Shown piece by piece: positions 6,640-33,775 of a stretch of 64,000 nt of DNA (position 1 is its first letter; every line of letters starts with the position of its first letter). A model generated the notes under the pieces. The model was not told the DNA's origin and ran no database searches. It worked only from the letters and a program-made list of their open reading frames with translations. The stretch is from NCBI RefSeq assembly GCF_023159225.1, contig NC_063188.1:10189086-10253085 (forward strand), in the 5' to 3' direction. Made by a program: the position numbers and the translations under genes. The stretch comes from Perognathus longimembris pacificus (Eukaryota > Chordata > Mammalia > Rodentia > Heteromyidae).

Positions 6640-8205
6640 CTTCTTTATTGTAAAAGTGAAGTACAGAGAGGTTACAGTTTCATATGTAAGGTGAGTACAT
6701 TTCACATGCAACTTGTTGCTTCCGCTCTCATTTTTCCTCTCCACCCTGCAACCCCATGAGTTAGTTTACACCAAATGGTCTTGTAAGTATTGCTTTTGCA
6801 ATGGTTTGTCTTTTTATCCTTTGTCTCTCAATTCTGGTATTTCCTTTCCCGTCCCTAGTTCCAATACACGTATATACAGTATCCAGGGTACTAAGATCAG
6901 ATACAATGATAGCAGGGGTAAAACCACGGGAAGGGAGTATGAGAGAAAAAAAAGGGTATGGTTTCACATGGCATGTTGAAATTAATTACAATAATGATAT
7001 ACCACTTGTTTCCATAACTTGGAGTTCATTTTGCTTAGCATCATCTTATGTGTTCATAAGGGCATAGCTATTGGGCTATTGTGAGCTTCTGCTATGACTA
7101 TTCTAGACATGCACTAATTATTCCCTATGAGGAAAACCATAGAGTCCATGTTTCTTTGGGTCTGGCTCACATCACTTAGAATGATTTTTTCCCCAAGTCT
7201 TTCCATTTCCTTATGAATGAGGCAATGTCATTCTTTCTGATAGAGGCATAGAATTCCATTGTGTATATGTGCCACATTTTCCTGATCCACTCATCTACTG
7301 AGGGGCATCTTGGTTGGTTCCATATTTTAGCAATGACAAATTGTGCTGTGATGAACATAGATGTGCTGGTGGCTTTAGTGTGGTCTTGCTTGTAATTTTT
7401 TGGGTAGATGCCCAAAAGTGAGGCAGCTGGGTCATAGGGGAGCTCTATGTTTAGCCCTCTGAGGAATCTCCATACCACTTTCCAGGGGGGCTGAACAAGT
7501 TTACATTCCCACTAACAATGTAGTAGGGTTCCCTTTTGGCCACATCCTCTCCAGCTTTTGTTATTATTAGTTTTCCGGATAATGGACATTCTTACTAGGG
7601 TGGAATCTCAGTGTTGATTTGATTTCCATTTCTTTTATGGCCAGTGAAGTAGAGCACCTCTTCATGTGTCTCTTGGCAATTCTCTCTTTTCTCTTCAGTG
7701 AAGTCTCTTTTTAGGTCTTTAGCCCACTTGTTGAGGGGGCCGTTGGTTCTTTGAGGATTTGTTTTGGAGGAATTTGACTTTTTGAGTTCTACTTATATTT
7801 TAGAGATGAGGCCTTTGTCAATTGTATGGCCGGTAAAGATCTTCTCCCAATCTGTGGGCTTTCTGTTTATCTTGCAAGCTACGTCCTTTGCCCTGCAGAA
7901 GCTCTGTAGTTTGATGCAGTTCCATTTTTCCATCCTTTCTTTGATTTGTTGTGTTTCTGAGCCTTTATTAAGGAATTTTCATCCTGTGCCGAGGAGCCCA
8001 AGTTTTTCTTCTATTCCTTCTTGTAGTGTTCTAAGGGTATCTGTTTTTACTTCAAGGTCTTTGATCCATTTGGAATTGATTGTGATCATATTTCCAGATC
8101 ATTTAGTTTGGTTGAAAACATTTCATGGTTTTAAGTCTTTGAAGTCCCATATTACTGGACATTTGTCTCCTTTTATTGTTTTGGCCTTACAAAACCAATT
8201 ATAAA
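6640..8205 (-). mobile_element. LINE-1 3' end, about 1.5 kb, 5'-truncated
   Basis: On the minus strand this runs from inside ORF2 (8205) through the ORF2 C-terminus (stop near 7175) to a 3' UTR and tail near 6640. The plus strand shows the standard landmarks 'attccattgtgtatatgtgccacatttt', 'ggccagtgaagtagagcacctcttcatgtgtctcttgg' and 'aatctgtgggctttctgtttatcttgcaagc'. It is the longest L1 piece in the window. A 146-codon plus-strand frame across it is a shadow. Confidence 0.92.
7176..7478 (-). pseudogene. L1 ORF2 C-terminal remnant (open 100 codons)
   Basis: This minus-strand frame stays open for 100 codons and matches the carboxyl end of L1 ORF2p. It shows 'LPYDPAASLLGIYPKNY', then 'MFITAQFVIAKIWNQPRCPS', then 'WIRKMWHIYTMEFYASIRKN'. 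These correspond to the conserved LPYDPAIPLLGIYPK...WIKKMWYIYTMEYYSAI region downstream of the reverse transcriptase domain. The endonuclease and RT domains are absent here, so it is not functional. The intact frame suggests a moderately young insertion. Confidence 0.93.
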
Positions 8206-13369: not shown

Positions 13370-13605
13370 GGTAAGGCATTGGCCTCCTTCCCAAGTTCTA
13401 ATACCATATGGCCTAGTGGTAAAGTGCTTGCCTCATATACATGAAGCCCTGGGTTCAATTCCTCAGCACCACATATATAGAAAAAGCCAGAAGTGGTGCT
13501 GTGGCTCAAGCGATAGAATGCTAGCCTTGACCAAAAAGAAACCAGGGACAGTGCTCAGGCCCTGAGTCCCAAGCCCCAGGCCTGGCTATAAAACCAAACC
13601 AAACA
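13370..13605 (+). mobile_element. Dimeric ID-type SINE
   Basis: Left unit 'tatggcctagtggtaaagtgcttgcctcatatacatgaagccctgggttcaattcctcagcacc', linker 'acatatatagaaaa', right unit 'gtggctcaagcgatagaatgctagccttgacc', and an A-rich tail. The first bases of the left unit are lost or replaced. Confidence 0.88.
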
Positions 13606-15171: not shown

Positions 15172-15411
15172 TTATTCCTTCCCTTTTTCTCTTCTACCCT
15201 TCTCCTTCCATATCTGCATTGTCTCTATTTTGCTTTGATTTGAAAATAATTTTTCTTTACACAAGAAATAAAATGTGCAGTAGTTCTCTTCAGGACATGG
15301 GTTTATTTTACCTTCTATGGTGATCTCCAGCTTCATCCATTTTCCTGCAAACAATATAATTTCATTTTTCTTTATGGCTGAGTAAATATCCATTGCATAT
15401 CTATATATCAC
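15172..15411 (-). pseudogene. L1 ORF2 extreme C-terminus remnant
   Basis: The frame on the minus strand begins 'YRYAMDIYSAIKKNEIILFAGKWMKLE', the ORF2p motif YxxTMEYYSAIKKNE...W(M/T)xLE. It continues into untranslated sequence, giving a 79-codon open stretch only partly homologous to ORF2p. It has no function. Confidence 0.85.
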
Positions 15412-15520
15412 ATTTTCTTTATCCTTTCATCCATTAGTGGGCACCTAGACTTGCTAAATAATTTTATTATTATTAGAACTGCTATGATAAACATGAACAC
15501 AATGGTGTCTATATAGTAAG

Positions 15521-17192: not shown

Positions 17193-17266
17193 TTAAGTTG
17201 CTATTTCTTATAAATACCACATGCTAACTGATTGCGCCACTGGAGCTCCATTAAGTTGCTATTTCT
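17193..17266 (-). pseudogene. Retro-inserted 5' half of tRNA-Ile(UAU)
   Basis: A 42-base insert (17209-17250) lies between two perfect 16 bp copies of ttaagttgctatttct (17193-17208 and 17251-17266). On the minus strand the insert reads 'tgga', then 38 bases starting 'gctccagtggcgcaatcagt' and ending 'ggtatttata'. From memory this matches the 5' part of mammalian tRNA-Ile(UAU) at about 33 of 38 positions, with differences mostly of the C-to-T/G-to-A type. It covers the acceptor 5' strand, the D arm and the 5' anticodon stem. It stops after the base following the UAU anticodon, which is where nuclear tRNA introns lie. No A tail is present. It cannot make a tRNA because the 3' half is absent. 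Confidence 0.82.
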
Positions 17267-33684: not shown

Positions 33685-33775
33685 TGCTTTAAGGAATAAC
33701 AATATAGCTCAAGTGATAGGGCGCATGCTTAGCAAGCATGTGGTCCTGTGTTCAAACCCCAGTACTGCCAAAAAA
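33685..33775 (+). mobile_element. ID element (single unit)
   Basis: 'tatagctcaagtgatagggcgcatgcttagcaagcatgtggtcctgtgttcaaaccccagtactgcc' plus an A-rich end is a tRNA-Ala-derived ID core with A- and B-box-like segments and no second unit. Confidence 0.82.

Follow-up and report, generated by a model that had tools for sequence, protein, structure and literature searches.

Tailless half-copies of tRNA-Ile(UAU) in the Perognathus genome carry leader and intron-start bases of their source genes

Background

Tailless retropseudogenes of tRNAs were reportedly treated by Schmitz et al. in 2004, work that may hold cases similar to those presented here. The class is described under that name in Noll 2015 (PMC5322556) and also treated in Kojima 2010 (PMC2912911), and a further paper credits pre-tRNA retropseudogenes to Schmitz 2004 (PMC4476161). 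Its members are 3′-truncated copies of processed or unprocessed tRNAs that have no oligo(A), are accompanied by duplications and end in single-stranded regions, and their targets are complementary to the terminal 2–18 nt of the RNA, with the consensus TT/WAAAAWW (PMC5322556). The choice between cut RNA and internal priming as the origin of 3′-truncated tRNA insertions is argued by default in the available text of Noll 2015 (PMC5322556).

Two further reports lie close to the present case. Chimeras of tRNA and LINE-1 sequence, in which the tRNA segment spans bases 1–37, were published in 2026, with possible cut tRNA halves proposed for them (PMC13174262). In humans, a 38-mer of tRNA-Ile(UAU) on chromosome 7, labelled tRNA by RepeatMasker, was raised as a problem for read mapping (PMC4694795).

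Here we analyse a half-copy of tRNA-Ile(UAU) in a stretch of 64,000 nucleotides of the Perognathus longimembris pacificus genome (contig NC_063188.1; the window) and the genome-wide family to which it belongs. The window insert is a member of the tailless retropseudogene class and, as a single locus, is ordinary. As far as the published descriptions available go, the Ile(UAU) family and the class are alike in truncation, in the absence of a tail, in duplications, in ends at single-stranded sites, predicted ones for Ile(UAU), and in target complementarity; they differ in degree only, the Ile(UAU) endpoint being near-constant and the junction being readable as the intron start of identifiable genes. 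The tRNA/LINE-1 chimeras likewise contain a tRNA 5′ half inserted with duplications via L1 machinery, whereas the window insert consists of tRNA only and its family points to uncut precursors (PMC13174262). The human 38-mer shares the 38-nt length and the endpoint TTATA, but in the accessible part of its report it is described without a duplication and as a mapping problem (PMC4694795).

The initial annotation of the window, made from its letters, had been aware of no described family of such copies. That view does not hold for the class, which is already in print, nor for the tRNA, a human half of which appears in PMC4694795. A search of titles and abstract beginnings, with most subscription papers outside it, returned no description of a family of Ile(UAU) half-copies; the size of the family, its sharp endpoint and its source-gene signature are new here.

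Anatomy of the window insert

The insert consists of 42 bases (17209–17250) between two identical 16-bp copies of ttaagttgctatttct, at 17193–17208 and 17251–17266, as the initial annotation had described. Read on the minus strand, the upstream (5′) duplication copy (17251–17266; AGAAATAGCAACTTAA, preceded by ...GACTAT) is followed by TGGA (17247–17250), in which we see a single extra base and then GGA, the final three bases ahead of the tRNA-Ile(UAU) genes L018 and L032, two of three in this genome. The 38 nt that follow (17209–17246) start with GCTCCAGTGGCGCAATC and end in TTTATA, which directly abuts the downstream (3′) duplication copy (17193–17208, 16/16 identical), so that, again in agreement with the annotation, there is no A tail between TTTATA and the duplication. 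These 38 letters stand for bases 1–37 of the tRNA, presumably because an extra D-loop base falls outside the numbering. They equal the three genes at 33 of 38 positions, which bears out the reading of the insert as a tRNA-Ile(UAU) 5′ half that extends to base 37; the five differences are all transitions, four of them at CpG positions, as expected for a decayed dead copy, and the window copy most likely has no function. The name Ile(UAU) follows from the three complete genes in the genome and from papers that print this tRNA 5′ end as IleTAT (PMC4694795, PMC7555719).

With up to three mismatches permitted, the window contains the 17-base tRNA start a single time (shuffle expectation 0.07), and the fragment is reported neither by ARAGORN nor by Rfam at its gathering score. 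Its flanking repeat scores 16, compared with 3 to 9 when family flanks are mismatched (185 pairings), and its target, AT/AGAAATA, matches the consensus of the class at 7 of 9 positions by hand count. The tRNA source, the 3′ truncation, the lack of oligo(A) and the 16/16-bp duplication are those of a tailless retropseudogene. Judging from the length of the duplication and from the target, L1 machinery is the likely source of the insert.

At the 3′ junction, the three bases AGA (17206–17208, minus strand) are common to the target and to intron nucleotides 1–3 of a gene of the L032 type. We infer that they are the priming overlap; provided that the source was an L032-type precursor, this 3-nt overlap of target and RNA lies within the 2–18 terminal nucleotides of complementarity known for the class. 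An alternative register, in which the RNA end UAUA pairs with TATA at the nick as first suggested, was rejected: it needs one extra base, against the observed overlap by AGA.

Elsewhere in the window, ARAGORN and Rfam both report a tRNA-Ala at 33697–33771 that is followed by an A run and by eye looks like a SINE derived from a tRNA, not like a gene. Open frames at 7176–7511 and 15172–15426, both on the minus strand, have translations that we take to resemble the C-terminal part of L1 ORF2.

A genome-wide family with a sharp endpoint

Further half-tRNA inserts, for which a genome scan had been suggested, are abundant in this assembly (2.21 Gb, 6180 contigs). The exact 17-base start has 40 matches in the genome, all of which were read: three genes and 37 short copies, the window's included (the first set). 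The reversed sequence of this probe has no match in the genome. A CpG-tolerant 24-mer with up to two mismatches has 220 matches, and its reversed control none. The best 100 of these 220 matches were examined, that is, fewer than half of them, best-scoring first; besides the three genes they contain 29 first-set copies and 68 others. These 68, being all the copies outside the first set among the best 100 of 220, form a second set that was read afterwards as a check. Eight first-set copies lie outside the best 100, and the remaining 120 matches may include some of them. In total 105 copies were read, and the genome holds at least a hundred half-copies of tRNA-Ile(UAU).

In the first set, none of the 37 copies ends before base 37, and none runs more than about 15 nt past it. 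By a motif test (GTACTTATA, up to two mismatches) base 37 is reached in 65 of 68 second-set copies and in 102 of 105 overall, with the proviso that endpoints before base 18 (17-base probe) or base 24 (24-mer) would escape detection. The three copies that end earlier are L116, L153 and L154. When the genome was searched for the 3′ half of this tRNA, allowing up to three mismatches, nothing beyond the three genes was found, and the 37 exact-start copies have neither an A tail nor a LINE-like tail. Nine of these 37 are identical to the genes at 38/38 bases, and copying therefore continued until recently in this lineage; 34 copies were compared ungapped, two of which, L008 and L038, have small indels.

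The copies were taken as independent on the grounds that their flanks differ. L020 and L119, some 91 kb from each other on C9, are flanked by the same duplication and probably go back to a single insertion that was copied along with its surroundings; both were kept in the counts.

Many similar short copies, together with the duplicated locus of L020 and L119, are also what might be seen of a self-propagating short SINE, the half-copies descending from a few masters. A tRNA 5′ half is without the second promoter box, and a 5′ half is all that these copies contain; they show neither the two tRNA halves nor the tail of a tRNA-derived SINE. Moreover, the source genes can be told apart in the copies by leader and intron start (see below), and the nine exact identities to the genes also speak against descent from masters. 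We consider a SINE origin extremely improbable.

Duplications accompany most of the family. A repeat score of at least 9 is found in 36/37 first-set and 57/68 second-set copies, compared with 2/185 mismatched pairings, a null built on the first set with a search range slightly narrower than that used for the second. The other 11 of the 68 have a weak or absent duplication. Copies with weak duplications (L104, L125, L142, L144, L146 and others) were kept in the counts, as was L012, for which the duplication call is spurious. Three copies, L004, L097 and L161, interrupt a common SINE at one and the same place; the uninterrupted form occurs in the window at 13479 and, by sequence comparison, is a paralogous empty site for all three. 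Their insertion site lies near AGAAAAGGCCAGAAGTGG, a repeated target that is compatible with priming overlap.

Intron starts and leaders in the copies

The three intron-containing tRNA-Ile(UAU) genes differ next to the 5′ exon: L014 has the leader ..CCAGGGT and the intron TAACAG.., L018 the leader ..CGGA and the intron CAGCAG.., and L032 the leader ..CGGA and the intron AGACAG... This tRNA can decide the template of its own copies because each candidate predicts different bases after base 37. A cut exon would be followed by target only, a spliced tRNA by ATGCC, and an unspliced precursor by AGA, CAG or TAA, depending on the gene.

First, AGA, CAG or TAA directly follows base 37 in 79 of the 102 copies that reach it, compared with a pooled background of 0.063. 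The first set has AGA 18 times, CAG 9 times and TAA 4 times (31/37); the second set has AGA 32, CAG 12 and TAA 5 times (49/68, a count that includes L154 even though it falls short of base 37; 48/65 among those reaching it). As a control, these words were sought at shifted positions in the first set: one base further they are found in 9/37 copies, and 2 to 8 bases further in 0 to 5/37. AGA starts may be due in part to endonuclease preference, but CAG does not resemble the L1 target consensus, and this preference alone is therefore insufficient to explain the junction words. The spliced tRNA was rejected as template, the first base of ATGCC being matched in 20/37 first-set copies and two bases in 0/37.

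Second, the intron bases are not always supplied by the target. In most copies they are also part of it, as expected of priming overlap, and in some they extend beyond it. The clear cases are L001, with 15 nt of the CAGCAG intron and one change; L022, with TAAC (4 nt); L015, with TA (2 nt); and three copies with 3 nt each, namely L114 and L145, in which TAA stands ahead of a duplication starting with CAG, and L149, in which CAG stands ahead of CAG. Weaker cases are L011, L017, L088, L108 and L113.

Third, the bases before G1 match the leaders and go with the intron type. GGA precedes G1 in 26/37 first-set and 52/68 second-set copies, and GGT in 3/37 and 6/68. Every GGT copy that reaches base 37 (3/3 and 5/5) continues with TAA, with which the intron of the GGT gene begins (Fisher, second set 1.2e-7, both sets 4e-11). 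The only other GGT copy, L153, stops short of base 37, and the one TAA exception, L003, is preceded by GGA. The two GGA genes share a C at base −4, yet C stands there in just 5/26 first-set GGA copies, which implies that the transcript probably started at GGA, the preceding base being target or extra. The TGGA of the window copy is consistent with such a transcript and one preceding base.

Two copies fit none of the three genes. In L036 the half is followed by 13 nt unlike any of the three introns, with the intron start TGGCAGTGCATGC, and L033 has the leader GCAT. They perhaps derive from a fourth tRNA-Ile(UAU) gene, lost or unassembled.

These junctions bear on the template that the initial annotation had put forward: an RNA with its end at base 37, either a free 5′ exon (a splicing intermediate) or a tRNA half of the stress type, captured by L1 machinery. 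The window insert does end at base 37, the tRNA parts of the published chimeras span 1–37 (PMC13174262), and 23/102 copies reaching base 37 have none of AGA, CAG and TAA. With its AGA inside the duplication, the window copy taken alone would also fit an RNA ending at base 37; it is the family that argues against one. Intron-start bases come next in the 79 copies counted above, some of them not derived from the target, and the leaders match the intron type, so that the usual template kept leader and intron and was not a free 5′ exon. Halves of a mature tRNA should be without a leader, and the window copy carries GGA. In L073, a copy of another tRNA, Arg(UCU), six intron bases stand ahead of the duplication. 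We therefore regard a free exon or tRNA half as very unlikely.

An RNA cut within the intron loop, comprising leader, 5′ exon and a few intron nucleotides, would account alike for a retained leader, for intron bases at the junction and for the sharp endpoint. Some intron stretches are longer, 15 nt in L001 and, target overlap included, 6 nt each in L022, L114, L145 and L149, and Noll et al. report a search in human for matching truncated 5S and U2 RNAs that gave none (PMC5322556), tRNAs not being named there. Such a cut RNA thus appears improbable. We conclude that the window insert is, with high probability, a tailless tRNA retropseudogene whose template was a leader-bearing, unspliced pre-tRNA-Ile(UAU), internally primed at the very start of the intron. 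For Ile(UAU), the family supports internal priming on precursors over the tRNA-half reading.

Endpoint and proposed mechanism

In the predicted minimum-energy folds of the three precursors, UAUA and intron nucleotides 1–4 form an 8-nt hairpin loop (UAUA followed by AGAC, CAGC or UAAC), in agreement with the published single-stranded ends of tailless copies. The ensemble of L014 is mixed, with the loop unpaired at about 0.5, and Arg precursor folds show a less clear loop although Arg copies exist. That a single-stranded loop sets the sharp endpoint is thus no more than suggested by the folds.

Insertion could then have proceeded as follows. A primary pre-tRNA-Ile(UAU) in the nucleus, with its short 5′ leader and its intron retained, would serve as template at an L1-type nick, where the nicked strand, ...TTTCT-3′, would pair with AGA, the first intron bases, in the predicted single-stranded loop. 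Reverse transcription by an L1 enzyme would run from AGA to the 5′ end of the transcript, the leader GGA, with one extra base added, and repair would leave the 16-bp duplication. Loop position and the extent of overlap between target and intron, and not exon cutting, would then set the end at base 37.

Other tRNAs of the same genome

Exact probes of the 5′ 17–19 bases, with one CpG each, were run for other tRNAs, of which Arg(UCU), Tyr, Asn and Val bear names that we presume to be correct. The name Leu(CAA) is taken from PMC7555719. Arg(UCU) has six matches, two genes and four copies, and all four copies continue with bases like those of one of the two introns; ahead of the duplication there are six such bases in L073, three in L076 and one in L072, and L075 has a poor duplication call. 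Leu(CAA) has five matches, four genes and one copy, which ends earlier and has leader bases in common with the gene L083. The Asn probe finds its own gene only (one gene, no copies).

Tyr has 56 exact matches, on four contigs at a spacing of about 2.87 kb, in a tandem array (C10:31661566–31690174, C3583, C3608 and C3849; L040–L069), and none of the 56 matches genome-wide is dispersed. Four of the 56 were read; all are genes, identical through the gene.

For intronless Val, 17 matches comprise five genes and 12 short, tailless copies (L163–L167, L173–L179). By eye, the anticodon loop contains the end of 11 of the 12, and L166 stops just short of it, so that an endpoint of this kind requires no splicing. 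In unspliced Ile(UAU), the loop predicted by folding spans the splice site. With 12 copies from five Val genes, copying up to the anticodon loop is general, and the lead of Ile(UAU) is one of degree. Several Val copies carry leader-like bases (GCAGTT, AACTG) that are absent ahead of the five genes read.

Implications

The three Ile(UAU) genes have 37 exact-start copies and about 217 matches to the tolerant probe, whereas Tyr, with 56 matches, has no dispersed exact-start copy. Unspliced, leader-bearing pre-tRNA-Ile(UAU) could on this basis be a privileged L1 template, the loop of anticodon and intron being its accessible priming site; since Val copies also exist, we give this reading an even chance. 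If it is true, L1 reverse transcriptase encounters the RNA while it is still unspliced and has its leader, presumably in the nucleus, and some of the published 1–37 tRNA insertions would reflect internal priming on precursors, not captured fragments. In that case, tRNAs with introns would serve as natural reporters of template state. The Ile(UAU) family is also a record of encounters between the retroposition machinery and pre-tRNA still bearing its leader or intron.
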